In this document: positions 29,774 through 36,136 of the stretch, piece by piece | How positions within the stretch are numbered: position 1 is the first letter of the stretch | Layout: every line of letters starts with the position of its first letter | Assembly (NCBI GenBank): GCA_025456205.1 | Contig: JALOLA010000011.1 | Coordinates: 1-37,874, forward strand | DNA length: 37,874 nucleotides | Direction of reading: 5' to 3' | Source of the DNA: Acidobacteriota bacterium | GTDB lineage: Bacteria > Acidobacteriota > Aminicenantia > UBA2199 | Program-made: the position numbers and the translations under genes | The notes under the pieces: model-generated | Databases searched by the model: none | What the model was told of the DNA's origin: nothing | What the model saw: only the letters and a program-made list of their open reading frames with translations

Positions 29774-29794
29774 CGTTACGCGTCACGTGTTACG
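29774..29794. repeat. Three degenerate heptamers overlapping the EcfA stop codon
   Basis: CGTTACG, CGTCACG and TGTTACG follow without a gap. The TGA of the ABC ATPase gene lies inside the second unit. The pattern (G/T)TYAC(G/T)N resembles the TTYACTN heptamers at 27941-27968, which suggests one family of heptamer repeats. Confidence 0.45.
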
Positions 29795-30538
29795 AAGGGT
29801 CATTCCTTTCATGAACATGCTCAACGGCCTCTCCAGGCGATGAGCCCTGAGTAGCTTGTCGTTTCCCAGGATCTCGTCTCTGGGGCCGTCGGCCTCGACG
29901 GCACCGTGGTCCATGACCAGGATGCGTCCGCACAACTCATATGCCAGGTCCATGTCATGGGTGGCAATGACCTTGGTCTGCGGCAGGGCGCGCACCAGCT
30001 CGATGAAGTCACGGCGACCGGCCGGATCGAGCCCCGCCGACGGTTCGTCGAAGGCCAGGAGCTCGGGCTCCATGACCAGCACCGCCGCCAGTGCCGCCCG
30101 CTTCTGCTCGCCCGGGCTGAGGCGCAACGGCGAGGCGGCGCCGATCTCTTCCAGATGCAAGCGCGCCATGATCGTTGCCACGCGCTGCCGCGCCTCCGCT
30201 TCGGGCCAGCAGCCGGCGCTGAGCGGGCCGAAGGCGATGTCCTCCTCGATGCTGGGCAGAAAAAGCTGTTGTCGCGGGTCCTGAAAGAGCAGCCCGACGC
30301 GGCGACGGATCTCCTTCAGGTTGTTCCGGCGCACTTCCAGGCCAAGGATGCGCACCAGGCCCCGGCCGCGCAGCACGCCGTTGAGATGCAGCAGCAGCGT
30401 CGATTTGCCGGCGCCGTTTGGCCCGACCAGGCCGACGCATTCGCCGACGGCGACGGTCATGCCGCTGACGCTCAGAACGGGCTTGCCGGAGCCGTAGGCG
30501 AAATCCAGGTGCTGGATCTCGATGGCCGTGTCGTTCAT
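29783..30538 (-). CDS. ECF-type metal transporter ATP-binding protein (EcfA, CbiO/NikO-like)
   Basis: The 251-residue ABC ATPase has Walker A GPNGAGKST, a Q-loop in LLFQDPRQQLFLPSIEEDIAFGP (a CbiO-type signature), the signature LSPGEQKRAALAA, Walker B ELLAFDEPSAGLDP and the switch His in KVIATHDMDLA. It powers uptake with the EcfT encoded just upstream. The ATG (30538) overlaps the EcfT stop by one base (TGATG), so translation is coupled; two in-frame GTG codons just upstream are unlikely starts. It ends in a heptamer repeat. The NikR operator upstream of the operon implies nickel or a nickel complex as substrate. Confidence 0.9.
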   Translation of the reverse strand: MNDTAIEIQHLDFAYGSGKPVLSVSGMTVAVGECVGLVGPNGAGKSTLLLHLNGVLRGRGLVRILGLEVRRNNLKEIRRRVGLLFQDPRQQLFLPSIEEDIAFGPLSAGCWPEAEARQRVATIMARLHLEEIGAASPLRLSPGEQKRAALAAVLVMEPELLAFDEPSAGLDPAGRRDFIELVRALPQTKVIATHDMDLAYELCGRILVMDHGAVEADGPRDEILGNDKLLRAHRLERPLSMFMKGMTLRNT

Positions 30539-31224
30539 CACCACACCGTGAAGAAAGCGCTGGCCAGGGCGGTGAGCGCCAGAAAAACCGCGTCGCGGCC
30601 GCAGAAAGCCAGATGCCGTCCGCCGGGCAGCTCGCCGTGAAAACCGCGGCTGATCATGGCGTCATGAATGTGGACGCCGCTCTCCAGGAGCCTTTCAAAG
30701 AACAGCGGCAACGCCTTGCCGCTGAGGCTGGCCCGGCGCGACCGCGGCAGGGAAGCGATATTGCGCCCGGTCCAGGCGCGGCGCATTCCTTCCAGCTCCA
30801 GATGCCACTGCCCGGCAAAGCGCAGGCCGACGGTCAGGACGACGACGGCGGAGCGGGGCAGCCCGGCCTGGCGCAGCGCCTGCAGCAGGCGCCCGGGCCG
30901 CTCATCCAGGATGAACAGGGCCAGCGCCAGGAGCGACAGCGCCGCCTTGGCGGCGATCAGCAGGCCGACCCGAGCCGGCGGCGTTCCGCCGGCGCCGGGG
31001 CGGAAAAAGGCGCTGAGGGCCAGGAAGGCCAGCAGCGGGGCCGACAGCGCCAGCAGTCGCAGCCAGAGGCGCCCGGAGCGGCCGGCCAGGGGCAGCAGGG
31101 CAAGGAGGAGGATCGCCAGCAGGACCAGGCGCGGGCCGAGCGGCCGCGTTGAGGGGATGAACAGCAGTGCCTGCACCGCCAGGAAGGCGACCAGCTTGGC
31201 GCGCGGGTCGATGGCGGCCAGCAT
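30538..31224 (-). CDS. ECF transporter transmembrane component (EcfT, CbiQ/NikQ-like)
   Basis: The 228-residue membrane protein has about five hydrophobic segments. The start DPRAKLVAFLAVQALLF is the usual 'DPRxKL' EcfT opening, and the coupling helices include DAMISRGFHGELP with an Arg-Gly coupling motif. It joins the S component to the ATPase. It lies 6 nt after the methyltransferase stop and overlaps the EcfA start. Its context is TonB receptor, S component, methyltransferase, EcfT, EcfA under NikR. Confidence 0.85.
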   Translation of the reverse strand: MLAAIDPRAKLVAFLAVQALLFIPSTRPLGPRLVLLAILLLALLPLAGRSGRLWLRLLALSAPLLAFLALSAFFRPGAGGTPPARVGLLIAAKAALSLLALALFILDERPGRLLQALRQAGLPRSAVVVLTVGLRFAGQWHLELEGMRRAWTGRNIASLPRSRRASLSGKALPLFFERLLESGVHIHDAMISRGFHGELPGGRHLAFCGRDAVFLALTALASAFFTVW

Positions 31225-31230
31225 CGTTCC

Positions 31231-31824
31231 TCAAGCCAGGGCCCAGGCGATGTACTGCCCGGGTTCGTCGACGATCTCGCAGGAGCTGAACCCGGCCGTC
31301 GCCAGCCATCCGGCCAGCACGGCCTTTTCCGGCAGCCGGTCGCGGCGCACGGGCCCGCTGCTCTCGGCATGCAAGCGGTCCAAAGCCTCGCGCCCCAGCT
31401 GGTGGGCAATGACCAGCATCCCTCCCGGCTTGAGAACGCGGCGGAATTCCTTCAGGGCGGCGCAACGGTCGTCGAGATGGGGCAGCAGGGCCAGGGCGAT
31501 CACCTTGTTGAAATCGCTGTCGGGGAAGGGCAGGTCGTGGGCGTCTCCGATTTGAAAGTCCACCCGGGGATCGGCCGTCTTGAGCCGGGCCCGTTCGATC
31601 ATGCCCGGGGCGAAATCGAGTTCGACCAGGCTGCCGCCGGCGCCGACCTCCTCCAGGATCAGGGCAACGAGGCGGCCGCTGCCGCAGCCGGCATCCAGGA
31701 CGCGCTCACCGGGCCCGAGGCGGAAATGGCCGGCGAAGTCGCGCAGGCGCTCCAGCTCCCCGGGCCGCGAATGCTCCCGGTCCCACGAAGCGGAAAGTTC
31801 GGAAAAGAACTCACTCTTGGTCAT
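31231..31824 (-). CDS. SAM-dependent methyltransferase inside the metal uptake operon
   Basis: The 197-residue class I methyltransferase has motif I ERVLDAGCGSGRLVALIL, the post-strand-2 region LVELDFAPGMIERAR, PFPDSDFNKVIALALLPHL and LKPGGMLVIAHQLGREAL. It is close to the UbiE/Methyltransf_11 group, and its substrate is unknown. Its start overlaps the S component gene by 14 nt and EcfT follows after 6 nt, so it belongs to the transport operon. It may modify a metallophore or an imported metal complex, which is inference from context only. Confidence 0.85.
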   Translation of the reverse strand: MTKSEFFSELSASWDREHSRPGELERLRDFAGHFRLGPGERVLDAGCGSGRLVALILEEVGAGGSLVELDFAPGMIERARLKTADPRVDFQIGDAHDLPFPDSDFNKVIALALLPHLDDRCAALKEFRRVLKPGGMLVIAHQLGREALDRLHAESSGPVRRDRLPEKAVLAGWLATAGFSSCEIVDEPGQYIAWALA

Positions 31825-32341
31825 GGCGTCTCAAGATGCGCTCCCTGCGGTCACGCAGCGGGGGGATGATCCAGGGCAGGACGGCGAGCATCAGCGTCAG
31901 CCCGGGCAGACCGCGCACGACCGCTGCCCAGCCCAGGAGTCGCGGCGGCAGCTCCATGAAGCGGGCCATGGCCTGGACCAGCACGAACAGCAGGGCTCGG
32001 TCGAGCAGCAGGACGACCAGCAGCGCCAGCCCATCGCTCAAGTTCAGCAGCCGCTGCAGCGGCCGGGGCAGGGCGGTGAACAGGAGCCCCTCGGCCATCA
32101 TGATGAAGGCGATGGGCGGGTAGAAGGGGGGCATGCCGGTCAGAAGTGCCGAAAGCAGCGGCGCGGAAAAGCCGACGACCATGGCCAGCGGTGGTGACAC
32201 CAGGAAGCCGGCCAGGGCCAGAGGGTAGAACATGGGCATGAAGGCGCTGCCCAGGCCCAGAAGGTGGAAGAAAACGGGCAGCACCAGGGAGGCCGACAAC
32301 AGCAGGCCGGCCAGCACGTAATCGAAACTGGGATGCTTCAT
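31811..32341 (-). CDS. ECF transporter S component-like membrane protein
   Basis: The 176-residue protein has five or six hydrophobic helices. Segments HLLGLGSAFMPMFYPLALAG and LLTGMPPFYPPIAFIMMAEG resemble the 'LGxxxLPMHxPVLLAG' and 'GMPPxxP...ME' patterns of ECF S components. It lacks the MHIPDGFL start of CbiM/NikM, and its N terminus reads Met-Lys-His. I chose the ATG at 32341 because it overlaps the receptor stop (ATGA). A frame open further upstream lies within the receptor gene. It most likely binds the substrate for the EcfT/EcfA pair. Confidence 0.75.
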   Translation of the reverse strand: MKHPSFDYVLAGLLLSASLVLPVFFHLLGLGSAFMPMFYPLALAGFLVSPPLAMVVGFSAPLLSALLTGMPPFYPPIAFIMMAEGLLFTALPRPLQRLLNLSDGLALLVVLLLDRALLFVLVQAMARFMELPPRLLGWAAVVRGLPGLTLMLAVLPWIIPPLRDRRERILRRHDQE

Positions 32342-34200
32342 TGCCGCCAGCGCAGACCGATGGAGACATTGCGGCCGGGCATGACGAAGGTGCCGGCGGA
32401 GATGCCGGGGAATTCCCCGAAGATGACGTATTCCTCGTCGAGGAGGTTGTTCAGGTCGATGATGAGGTCGAGCCGGGAGATGAACTTGGCAACCCAGCGG
32501 GCATTCAGGATCAGGTAGGAAGGGATGGGGTTCCGGGAATTCGCCCCGGCGAAGTAGGTGTTGACCTGCTGGCCCTGCAGCGAGGCGTCGAGCCGGCGCG
32601 AGTGGAAGCGCAGGGCGGCGTCCCACTTGTGTCCGGGCCGGCCGGCGGTCTGGTCGCCGGGATCCAGATAGGCATGGCTGAGCTCGATCTCCAGGGCCGC
32701 CAGCGGCCTGGCGCTCACGCCGATCTCAACGCCGGCGAATGCGAAACTGCCGGTGTTGAGGAAGATGAACTTGTTGCCAGGGCCGGGATTCGGCCGGGTC
32801 TCGATCAGGTTGCTGCCGCGCATGGAGAACGCGCTGGCCTGCAGGGCCCAACGGGATGCGACGCGCCAGTCGATGCCGATCTCGTAGTTCCAGGTGCGCT
32901 CTGGCTCCAGGTCGGGATTGGCGGGGGGGAACATGTACAGCTCGTTCAGCTGCGGTGAGCGGAAGCCCTTGCTGGCCTGCAGCCGCGCCGAAAACGCCGT
33001 CGTGGCGTGCCAGACCAGCCCGGCCTGGGGGCAGAGCTCGCTGCCGTAGAGAGAATCGAACTGCAGGCGCAGCCCGGCGCTGGCGACCAGGGCGGCGGCG
33101 GGCAGCCAGTCGTCATGGAGGAAGAGCGACCCCTCGCTCTTGCGCCATTCCCCCCTGGGGGCGTGGATGCTGCGGCCGCCGAAGCGGCGGTAATCGCCGC
33201 CAGCCAGGAGGACATGGTTCTTCAGGCGGCGCGTGGTCCAGCGGGCCAGGGCGCCGTTGGTGAAATCGGTCGAGTCCCAGCCGTCGGAGAATCGGTGCTT
33301 GCCGAAATTGCGGTAAAGACGCAGGCTCCACTCGTCCCGATCCCCTTTGCCGGTCAGGGAGAGGTCGACAGCGCCGCGGCGGTAGTCATTCCATGAATCG
33401 GCCAGCGGCTGCTCCACCGTGCCGGGTTCGTGCTTCAGGGCATCGAAGTACTTGCCCTGCAGCGTGAGCTCCAGGAAAGGCGCCAGCTCCCAGTCGAGGC
33501 GGGTGGTCAGGGCGTCGCCCCGGTAATCGGAGTTTTCCAGGTGGCCGTCGCTTTGCCTGCGGTCATAGGTGACCAGGTAGCCCAGGCGGCCGCTCTTGCC
33601 GCCCTGCTGCAGGTTGAGCTGGCCGGTCCGGAAGCTGCCGTAGGAGAGCTGCAGCCGGCTTTCCGATTTTTTTTCCGGCCGGCGGGTGATGATGTTCACC
33701 GCGCCGCCCATGGCCTCGCCGCCGTACAGCACCGACGCCGGCCCCTTGATCACTTCAATGCGCTCGACGTTGTCCATCGGGAAGGCGTGGGTCACGGCGC
33801 AGCCGAAGAGTCCCATCTTTTCCGGCCGGCCGTTGACCAGCACGGCGATGCGCCGGCCGTTCTGTCCCAGGCCGCGGATGTCGAGGTCGGAGCGGCCGAA
33901 GTCGCCGCTGCGCTGCACGAACAGGCCGGGGAAACCGTCCAGTGCAGCCAGGGCGCTGCTCGCCGGCAGCATGTCCAGCACCGGCCGGTCGACAAGAAGC
34001 AGGGAGTCGCTGCAGTTCTTCAGCTCCTTGGGGGACATGACGGCGGTCACGACGACGTGTTCATGGAAGAGGATCTTCTTTTCCTGCTTCTGGTCGCCCC
34101 GGGAAGCCGGCTCCGCTTTTTCGGGAAAAAGGCGGACGGCAGGAGAGAGCGCGATGAAAGCCATGAGGGTCGCGGCAACCAAGGCGGATCGGGGGCGCAT
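32338..34200 (-). CDS. TonB-dependent outer-membrane receptor, predicted nickel or nickel-complex uptake
   Basis: The 620-residue protein has a signal peptide (about 1-25), a TonB-box-like HVVVTAV (about residue 50) and a plug domain (LPASSALAALDGFPGLFVQRSGDFGRSDLDIRG, VERIEVIKGPASVLYGGEAMGGAVNIITR). A barrel with SKGFRSPQLNELYMFPPANPDLEPE and a C-terminal RLDLIIDLNNLLDEEY region completes it. The layout is BtuB/CirA-like, but no cobalamin riboswitch fits the short leader. The ATG has AGGAGG 5 nt upstream. The promoter carries the NikR-type operator, so nickel is the likely cargo. It is followed by the S component gene with a 4-nt overlap. Confidence 0.9.
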   Translation of the reverse strand: MRPRSALVAATLMAFIALSPAVRLFPEKAEPASRGDQKQEKKILFHEHVVVTAVMSPKELKNCSDSLLLVDRPVLDMLPASSALAALDGFPGLFVQRSGDFGRSDLDIRGLGQNGRRIAVLVNGRPEKMGLFGCAVTHAFPMDNVERIEVIKGPASVLYGGEAMGGAVNIITRRPEKKSESRLQLSYGSFRTGQLNLQQGGKSGRLGYLVTYDRRQSDGHLENSDYRGDALTTRLDWELAPFLELTLQGKYFDALKHEPGTVEQPLADSWNDYRRGAVDLSLTGKGDRDEWSLRLYRNFGKHRFSDGWDSTDFTNGALARWTTRRLKNHVLLAGGDYRRFGGRSIHAPRGEWRKSEGSLFLHDDWLPAAALVASAGLRLQFDSLYGSELCPQAGLVWHATTAFSARLQASKGFRSPQLNELYMFPPANPDLEPERTWNYEIGIDWRVASRWALQASAFSMRGSNLIETRPNPGPGNKFIFLNTGSFAFAGVEIGVSARPLAALEIELSHAYLDPGDQTAGRPGHKWDAALRFHSRRLDASLQGQQVNTYFAGANSRNPIPSYLILNARWVAKFISRLDLIIDLNNLLDEEYVIFGEFPGISAGTFVMPGRNVSIGLRWRQ

Positions 34201-34215
34201 GCCACCTCCTGTTCG

Positions 34216-34242
34216 GTGTTACCAATTAAAAAAAAGTAACAC
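34216..34242. promoter_or_regulatory. Predicted NikR operator GTGTTAC-N13-GTAACAC
   Basis: The two 7-nt half-sites are perfectly complementary and separated by 13 nt of mostly A (minus strand T). The form matches what I recall for NikR sites outside enterobacteria. It overlaps the -10 element of the receptor promoter and lies just downstream of the nikR gene, so bound NikR should repress the operon. Confidence 0.8.
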
Positions 34243-34287: not shown

Positions 34288-34707
34288 TTACTCCAGATGG
34301 CTGCCGGTGGTCGTGGTGATCAGCTTGCCGTGCTTGACCCCCTTGGCGCTGAGCAGGAAACCGGCCACTTCCTGGATCTTCCTTGCCGATCCTTTCAAAA
34401 TGACGACCTCAAGGCAGTTGTGCTCGTCCATGTGGATGTGGGTGGTGGAGAGGATGATGCCCAGGTGGCGGTGCTGGATGTCGGTCAGCTTCTTGGCGAG
34501 TTCCCGTACTTCGTGGCTGTACACCAGGCTCAGCACGCCCATGGCGGGGGTTGTGCCGGTTTTCCACTCCTCGGCCACCAGCCGTTCGCGGATCAGGTCG
34601 CGGATCGCCTCCGAGCGGCTCGCGTAACCCTGGGTGGCGATGAAAGGGTCGAATTTTTTCAGGAGCGACGCTTCCAATGAAACACCGAAGCGGACCAATT
34701 TGCCCAT
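34288..34707 (-). CDS. nikR: Nickel-responsive repressor NikR
   Basis: The 139-residue protein has an N-terminal ribbon-helix-helix domain (VRFGVSLEASLLKKFD...YASRSEAIRDLIR) and a C-terminal ACT-like nickel-binding domain. All four high-affinity nickel ligands of E. coli NikR are present: His79 (DIQH), His90 and His92 (THIHMDEH) and Cys98 (NCLEV). The length is as usual. I chose the ATG at 34707 (AGGAAGG 6 nt upstream); the frame is open 30 codons further. It is followed by the receptor operon, whose promoter carries the NikR-type inverted repeat. No matching operator was seen upstream of nikR itself. Confidence 0.92.
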   Translation of the reverse strand: MGKLVRFGVSLEASLLKKFDPFIATQGYASRSEAIRDLIRERLVAEEWKTGTTPAMGVLSLVYSHEVRELAKKLTDIQHRHLGIILSTTHIHMDEHNCLEVVILKGSARKIQEVAGFLLSAKGVKHGKLITTTTGSHLE

Positions 34708-34725
34708 GGTTGCCTTCCTGGGGAA

Positions 34726-34755
34726 ATAGTATTCTTTTTTGGATGGACAATGCAA
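34726..34755 (-). promoter_or_regulatory. Possible promoter of nikR
   Basis: On the minus strand, TTGCAT, an 18-nt spacer and TACTAT lie about 20 nt before the nikR start. This would let nikR be transcribed apart from the Mrp operon upstream. Confidence 0.4.
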
Positions 34756-34807
34756 GCCACCTGCCGTTGAAGAGCAGGAAAGTCGGCGCGGCTTCATCGG
34801 GATCCGT

Positions 34808-34831: not shown

Positions 34832-36136
34832 TCAGTGGTCGCAGACGTTCTCCCCGCTCTGCAGCGTGCCCGCCAGATAGGACGCTACCAGGGTCTCCGG
34901 CGTCTCGGCCGGGGCGCCGATGACCACCTGGATGCCGTGCTCGCAGAACAGGGCCTGGGCGCGCTGGCCCATGCCGCCGGCGATGATCAGGTTCGCTCCG
35001 CGTTCCGCCAGCCACTTGGGCAGCAGTCCCGGCTCATGGGGCGGTGCTTCCAGGTCTTCCCTTTTCACGATTTTTTTCTCAACGGGGTCGGCCTCGACCA
35101 GGGCGAAGCTCCCACAGTGCCCGAAATGCATGGCCAATTTTCCGTCGGCCAGAGGAATGGCGATCTTCATGTTGTTTTTCTCCTTGTTTGTTTTGACATT
35201 CTTGGCGGTGACTTCGGCCGCGCCCGGATCCAGAGCCAGAAGCGGCGTGACGATGCGACGCATGATCTCCGCGGTGGGGGATGAGGCAAAGGCGCTGACA
35301 TAGGGCCGGCCGCTGTCGCCGGAAAGGGTGATCGCCGGGTCGATCGGAATGGATCCCAGGAATGGCGTGTTCATGTCCGTGACGATCCGCTTGCCCCCGC
35401 CGCTGCTGAAGACGGCGGAAACCTCGCCGCACTTGGGGCAGGCGAAGCCGTTCATGTTCTCCACCACGCCGAGCACGGGGACGCCGAGCTGGCGGCAGAA
35501 GGTGATGGACTTGCGCACGTCGACCGCCGCCACCTTCTGCGGCGTGGTGACGATCACCGCGCCGTCGAGCTTGCCGATCAGCTGGCACACCGAGAGCGGC
35601 TCGTCGCCTGTTCCCGGCGGCGAATCGATGACCAGATAGTCCAGATCGCCCCAGTCCACGTCCTTGAGGAACTGCTTGATGGCGCCCATCTTCAAGGGCC
35701 CGCGCCAGATCACGGCCTGGTCGGGGTCGGGGAGGAGGAAGCCCAGGGACATGACCTTCATGCCGTTGGCGTCCGCCGGGAGCAGCCCGCCGGGCCCGCT
35801 CTGCAGGGAAACTCCTTCCAGGCCCAGCATGGTGGGGATGCTCGGCCCATGGATGTCGACGTCGAGCAGTCCGACGCGCTTGCCGACCATCTGCAGGGCC
35901 GCGGCAATGTTTACCGCCACCGTGCTCTTGCCGACCCCGCCCTTGCCCGAGAGCACGACGACCTTGTGCGCGATGCGGCAGAGGCGCGATTCGAGCTCGC
36001 GCCGCTCGGCGAAATCCTGGGCGCTTTCGCCCTGCTTGCGCGCATTGGCGGAACACTCCCTGTCGCGGCAGCCGTCACAGGCGGTCGAGCCCTCTTCTCC
36101 CTTTTCCGGTCCATGTTCCATGTTTTTGCGTTGCAT
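34832..36136 (-). CDS. Mrp/NBP35 P-loop ATPase fused to a NifX/NifB-like domain
   Basis: The 434-residue protein has an N-terminal cysteine cluster (Cys20, Cys23, Cys28). An Mrp/Nbp35 ATPase domain follows, with Walker A KVVVLSGKGGVGKST, IHGPSIPTML, DYLVIDSPPGTGDE and a C-terminal CPKC (residues in GFACPKCGE). Proteins of this family carry iron-sulfur clusters to apoenzymes. After a short linker, the last 112 residues (IAIPLADGKLAMHFGHCGSFALVEAD..., AERGANLIIAGGMGQRAQALF) form a dinitrogenase iron-molybdenum cofactor (NifX/NifB-C) domain. AAGGAG lies 9 nt before an in-frame ATG at 35170, so the second domain may also be made alone. AGGAG precedes the main ATG. Confidence 0.9.
   Translation of the reverse strand: MQRKNMEHGPEKGEEGSTACDGCRDRECSANARKQGESAQDFAERRELESRLCRIAHKVVVLSGKGGVGKSTVAVNIAAALQMVGKRVGLLDVDIHGPSIPTMLGLEGVSLQSGPGGLLPADANGMKVMSLGFLLPDPDQAVIWRGPLKMGAIKQFLKDVDWGDLDYLVIDSPPGTGDEPLSVCQLIGKLDGAVIVTTPQKVAAVDVRKSITFCRQLGVPVLGVVENMNGFACPKCGEVSAVFSSGGGKRIVTDMNTPFLGSIPIDPAITLSGDSGRPYVSAFASSPTAEIMRRIVTPLLALDPGAAEVTAKNVKTNKEKNNMKIAIPLADGKLAMHFGHCGSFALVEADPVEKKIVKREDLEAPPHEPGLLPKWLAERGANLIIAGGMGQRAQALFCEHGIQVVIGAPAETPETLVASYLAGTLQSGENVCDH

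Follow-up and report, generated by a model that had tools for sequence, protein, structure and literature searches.

Cnt-type nickel metallophore systems, exemplified by staphylopine and pseudopaline, work with a chelate, to which Gram-negatives add a TonB receptor; staphylopine-type importers are SBP_bac_5 ABC systems that carry their own synthesis genes. The locus described here shares with them, as we propose, a chelate and a TonB receptor, but its inner-membrane step is of the ECF type and no synthesis gene was seen in its operon. It is like the NikMNQO and CbiMNQO importers in its ECF layout, CbiQ-like T component, ATPase and NikR operator (PMC545781), and seemingly fills the same niche in related genomes. 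It differs from them in adding a TonB receptor and a methyltransferase, and in an S component that, as an earlier note on this DNA had claimed, has no MHIPDG signature, and that has no match to Pfam CbiM (PF01891) either. With the vitamin S components RibU, FolT, BioY and ThiT this protein has the six-helix fold in common (TM-score about 0.55–0.7), but it is set apart from them by nickel control, invariant FH, PM and GMPP motifs and a near-invariant Glu84, and linkage to a vitamin riboswitch was not found at the loci scanned. An ECF S component that imports a metal complex is known in LhaS, which takes up heme (PMC7299338). By its description, LhaSTA of Staphylococcus lugdunensis resembles the system proposed here in being an ECF importer that responds to a metal and takes up a metal complex, but it couples heme to Fur rather than nickel to NikR, has no methyltransferase described and belongs to a Gram-positive organism (PMC7299338).

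The window, meaning the whole stretch of 37,874 nucleotides that was analysed, carries on its minus strand genes in the order nikR, TonB receptor, S, methyltransferase, T and A, with small overlaps or gaps from S onwards:

34288–34797, minus strand: nikR, nickel-responsive regulator, above the NCBIfam cut-off
34216–34242, no strand assigned: NikR box GTGTTAC-N13-GTAACAC, perfect, 16 nt before the TonB receptor start
32338–34200, minus strand: TonB-dependent outer-membrane receptor with plug and barrel; by sequence, the solved proteins closest to it are the colicin I receptor and BtuB
31811–32341, minus strand: ECF S component, vitamin type, 176 aa (Pfam, 61-sequence alignment, AlphaFold, Foldseek)
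31231–31824, minus strand: SAM-dependent methyltransferase of class I, 197 aa, which recurs as the partner of S and overlaps it by 14 nt
30538–31224, minus strand: ECF T component, CbiQ family (44 bits, cut-off 25)
29783–30544, minus strand: ECF A component, ATPase (profile matches)

Since S overlaps the stop of the TonB receptor gene by 4 nt, co-transcription of the two is likely, and the T and A components for S are available in its own operon. No metallophore-synthesis gene was seen in the window's operon, so a ligand would be scavenged or made elsewhere. The gene beside nikR, at 34832–36136 on the minus strand, encodes a P-loop ATPase of the NUBPL type (Mrp-like) whose fusion partner is a dinitrogenase iron-molybdenum cofactor domain (PF10609 and PF02579).

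The NikR box matches perfectly the consensus GTGTTAC-[N13/14]-GTAACAC published for delta-proteobacteria (PMC545781), here in an acidobacterial host. It is the sole match in the window, where 0.14 would be expected at up to three mismatches, and the sole site with two or fewer mismatches in the 2.59 Mb genome. On sequence, the operator before the operon plus the nikR gene places these genes in a predicted NikR regulon. The proposal that S sits under a NikR operator holds at the level of the operon and not directly before S, as the box is upstream of the TonB receptor gene, ~1.9 kb before S.

The reading frame of S is real: it starts with an ATG at 32341 on the minus strand, its stop ends at 31811, and its product begins MKHPSFDYVL, including the Met-Lys-His N terminus noted earlier. 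Its top Pfam match is ECF_trnsprt, at 17.9 bits below the 30.7-bit cut-off; 15 of 16 relatives match the same family at E ≤ 1, the first of the 16 scoring 33.3 bits, above the cut-off, which a further relative, at 72.1 bits, also passes. TIGR04518 reached 10.6 bits against a cut-off of 60, and a profile of S searched by sequence against the PDB matched nothing, even at E = 10. An AlphaFold model built from an alignment of 61 homologues (mean pLDDT 95.6) was then compared with the PDB using Foldseek; RibU, FolT, BioY and ThiT led the matches, with TM-scores mostly 0.55–0.7 and probabilities near 1, although no E-value was lower than 0.008. Every one of the leading matches is a vitamin S component, confirming the resemblance first suggested from the sequence. 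According to this model, S is a six-helix vitamin-type ECF S component, a predicted fold in keeping with a ligand bigger than a bare ion.

The His at position 3 had been proposed to form an ATCUN-type nickel site. This His is confined to the window's genus, and even there one member, G123, has Met-Arg-Tyr in place of Met-Lys-His; in other genera S begins MKY, MSY, MRY, MNH, MKE or LKS. Because the protein has six helices and a basic C-terminal tail, its N terminus should be intracellular. With a His that is genus-specific, replaced by Tyr even within the genus, and an N terminus predicted to be cytoplasmic, the ATCUN proposal is unsupported. A different native start codon had been considered as well; relatives in the genus keep the ATG and the same frame at that point, supporting the annotated start.

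Conservation in S lies elsewhere. Across the 61 sequences, Pro22, Phe25, His26, Pro36, Met37, Pro40, Ser64 and Gly69-Met70-Pro71-Pro72 are among the invariant residues, and Thr68, Met81, Glu84 and Arg115 are near-invariant. Most of the conserved residues are found in or beside the loops between helices 1 and 2 and between helices 3 and 4, which should form the outer, ligand-binding face if the protein shares the topology of known S components.

The gene for S is present in 35 of 142 genomes of the window's class, where the order TonB receptor, S, methyltransferase, T, A is largely kept and nikR is often adjacent. A profile scan of named genomes placed homologues in about twelve phyla, reaching Aminicenantes, other Acidobacteriota, Gemmatimonadota, KSB1, Sumerlaeota and Spirochaetota, together with Armatimonadota, Myxococcota, Ignavibacteriota, Bacteroidota, Dependentiae, one PVC-group genome and Bacillota. 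A methyltransferase gene lies near S in 54 of 81 loci, the window counted, and within 200 bp in 48 of those 54, and pairs of the two genes occur in many phyla; it is missing at about a third of the sampled loci, chiefly in Bacillota. A TonB receptor gene was found at 35 of the 81. In three Spirochaetota loci (L110, L123, L129), a protein of 218–222 aa, perhaps a divergent T component, takes the T position between methyltransferase and ATPase; Pfam did not match the one from L123. At five loci (L122, L128, L135, L139, L144) a gene of the FmdE family adjoins S or sits within the ECF operon at the methyltransferase position, with PF02663 (FmdE) confirmed in L128.

Nickel genes recur around these homologues. 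Both the convergent form of the NikR box and the reversed one that has been published were counted; such boxes stand before S operons in Acidobacteriota, KSB1, Gemmatimonadota, Armatimonadota, Myxococcota and Bacillota, and 29 perfect degenerate sites were found in 1.0 Mb as against none in a reversed-sequence control. In Bacillota and Gemmatimonadota nikR comes immediately before S, in Clostridium simiarum S is preceded by hypA, in L093 a hypB-hypA pair is convergent to S, and in Acetobacterium paludosum nikMN-T-A is followed by S and two methyltransferase genes. In a tree of S with 61 rows, whose labels were assigned by hand (that of L104 as a carrier of the RNA element described below is wrong), most major clades contain rows with NikR evidence, and 17 or 18 rows have no nickel signal in the sequence examined around S. 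The family's link with NikR sites, which the earlier note had named as a check, is therefore borne out by homologues under NikR boxes or beside nikR, hypA/B and nikMN. In C. simiarum, genes for a FAD/4Fe-4S oxidoreductase, HypA, S and the methyltransferase follow in series (L141:3846–8126), an array reminiscent of an operon in Acetobacterium wieringae for a putative isoprene reductase linked to a nickel chaperone (PMC10134865).

Across the class, 29 of 35 genomes with S have NikR, versus 35 of 107 without S (p = 3e-7, with shared ancestry ignored and incomplete MAGs). The 64 NikR-positive genomes divide into 3 with both S and CbiM, 26 with S alone, 19 with CbiM alone and 16 with neither, a tendency of S and CbiM towards mutual exclusion in NikR-positive Aminicenantia with p = 2e-4, again ignoring shared ancestry and counting incomplete MAGs. 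Judged from gene content, S tends to replace the CbiM/NikM importer in NikR-positive genomes. No CbiM match was obtained in the window's genome, and genus g8 offers a contrast, with nikR beside a classical NikM operon (L148). The window's genome has HypA, two genes taken by eye for HypF and HypD, and a fragmentary match to a NiFe hydrogenase large subunit near antiporter-like genes; together, these indicate that the organism probably needs nickel.

This tendency to replace CbiM could mean that S imports the bare nickel ion as an analogue of NikM, with His26, Met37, Met70, Met81 and Glu84 as a metal site and the methyltransferase as a separate function. The invariance of His and Met residues, a T component of the CbiQ family and the Bacillota members that have no TonB receptor and often no methyltransferase all point the same way. 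We nevertheless consider a bare-ion cargo unlikely: the fold of S matches S components for large ligands and not CbiM, the recurrent TonB receptor and methyltransferase are hard to square with an ion, and the Acetobacterium S is encoded beside a complete NikMN-T-A set.

The methyltransferase (METHYLTRANSFERASE) has a generic class I fold, and neither sequence nor fold pointed to a substrate, since only generic class I methyltransferases matched. Outside its SAM-binding motifs, Phe7, Trp14, Pro115, His116, His141 and His152 are invariant. By their fold positions, His116 after strand 4, His141 at the end of strand 5 and His152 in the next helix, the three histidines may line the methyl-acceptor site; His116 is weak evidence for a metal site because its position is common in the methyltransferase superfamily. 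True fusions of S to the methyltransferase occur in L059, L061 and L063, all from one Aminicenantia genus, as proteins of about 380 aa. Apparent fusions in L103 and L137 were rejected as overlapping reading frames in another frame. As the C terminus of S should be cytoplasmic, a fused methyltransferase would face the cytoplasm.

The frequent methyltransferase partner and the vitamin-type fold would also be consistent with import of an organic precursor, a ligand or cofactor building block that the methyltransferase finishes for nickel handling or for a nickel enzyme, and the FmdE swaps at five loci and neighbouring FdhE genes suggest a metalloenzyme context. Such a cargo appears improbable, as operons controlled by NikR mostly take up nickel itself (PMC545781) and S tends to stand in for a known nickel importer.

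We also searched for riboswitches. No Rfam family matched in the window, and none of 22 loci scanned showed riboswitch control of S. The lone cobalamin riboswitch in the 22 loci (L066:3699–3883) lies a few kb away from the operon under NikR control and precedes a second, different TonB receptor gene; the locus naturally contrasts control by B12 with control by nickel. BtuB is among the solved relatives of the TonB receptor by sequence, which could suggest import of a corrinoid or of a cobalt complex, NikR control then being incidental or cross-metal; with a cobalamin riboswitch on none of the 22 scanned S operons, the one in L066 preceding another TonB gene, we regard such import as very improbable. 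It would be more surprising still if S were an ordinary vitamin transporter and a chance member of a nickel operon. Its fold and weak folate-family profile matches are of that kind, but the link with nickel is met again in several phyla and with two kinds of control element, and no vitamin riboswitch controls S in the 22 loci, making this reading extremely unlikely.

Homologues of S thus track nickel genes and NikR boxes rather than lying mostly beside vitamin genes or riboswitches, the pattern that the earlier note had named as refuting its proposal. With NikR boxes, nickel-gene neighbours, the lack of riboswitch control of S in the scanned loci and the tendency of S and CbiM to exclude each other, the nickel linkage of S is well supported by genomic context. 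The suggestion that S is a new S component for nickel or a nickel complex stands as far as nickel-regulon membership, a vitamin-type fold and separation from CbiM/NikM are concerned; the cargo is deduced from context.

In several Bacillota, S genes that have no NikR box carry a hairpin-terminator with a conserved, CCRYGAAGG-like 5′ strand. Loci with this element, before S or before NikA-like, NikM/CbiM, methyltransferase, FmdE or LarE genes, are L158, L161, L169, L173–L176 (Acetobacterium paludosum), L098, L107, L116, L127, L131 and L182–L209, and in L098 the conserved core occurs in three tandem copies before S. Rfam 15 matched no family to this element in the loci scanned; at a relaxed threshold L106 gave no match and L098 a spurious miRNA match only. 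Six of 11 consensus pairs show two-sided changes. Depending on the threshold, A. paludosum has 9 to 14 matches; downstream of them stand the genes for S, methyltransferases, FmdE and NikA-like binding proteins, as well as a CbiM/NikM operon and ABC ATPase clusters. Matches were found in 33 of 61 genomes of its order. In all 23 loci where the downstream gene was readable, it fits the nickel-linked picture: 9 NikA-type binding proteins, 8 methyltransferases, 2 CbiM and one each of FmdE, a NikB-type permease, LarE and S, classed mostly by their similarity to genes of A. paludosum; nine were checked against Pfam and NCBIfam, and the binding-protein and permease matches to nickel families fell below the cut-offs of those families. 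LarE belongs to the nickel-pincer pathway. An Acetobacterium genome with several nickel import systems has been reported to be without NikR (PMC10134865). With NikR boxes before some S operons and this element before others, the S family is under two different nickel-linked controls, and the element is a candidate nickel-responsive attenuator or riboswitch. A literature search for a nickel-uptake RNA, a nickel-linked methyltransferase or a comparable S component returned nothing relevant; subscription literature lay outside its scope and may hold an earlier mention.

The sequences themselves show the operon and its operator, the predicted fold, the conserved residues and the company that S keeps with nickel genes; from the TonB receptor, the methyltransferase and the fold we infer a cargo that is a complex and not a bare ion, while the ligand residues and the part played by the methyltransferase are proposals. 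We thus favour, as the probable arrangement, S as the substrate-binding component of a dedicated, NikR-repressed ECF importer for a nickel complex; once inside, the ligand or complex would be acted on by the methyltransferase. When nickel is sufficient, NikR would repress the operon; when it is short, receptor, importer and methyltransferase would be derepressed together. The TonB receptor would take the nickel complex (a chelate, or 'nickelophore') across the outer membrane, S would bind it at the outer face, with the conserved His26, Met37, Met70, Met81 and Glu84 as candidate ligands, and S with T and A would move it into the cytoplasm. There, a methyltransferase on the cytoplasmic side would methylate the ligand or complex, thereby releasing or trapping nickel.

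More tentatively, the family may represent a separate nickel acquisition class in about a dozen phyla, in which S imports nickel chelates and a SAM methyltransferase at the inner face methylates the chelator to release or trap nickel, part of the Bacillota using a new nickel-linked transcription-attenuation RNA instead of NikR; we hold this broader generalisation to be possible and somewhat short of an even chance.

Some genomes have NikR and nickel-enzyme genes with no recognised CbiM-type nickel importer, and the S family would fill this gap in Aminicenantia and other lineages. It would also be a case of the vitamin-type S fold recruited for nickel, and methylation-coupled release of a metal would become testable. 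In Bacillota, the RNA element before NikA-, NikM- and LarE-type genes is a concrete candidate nickel-responsive attenuator, also for organisms that have no NikR.
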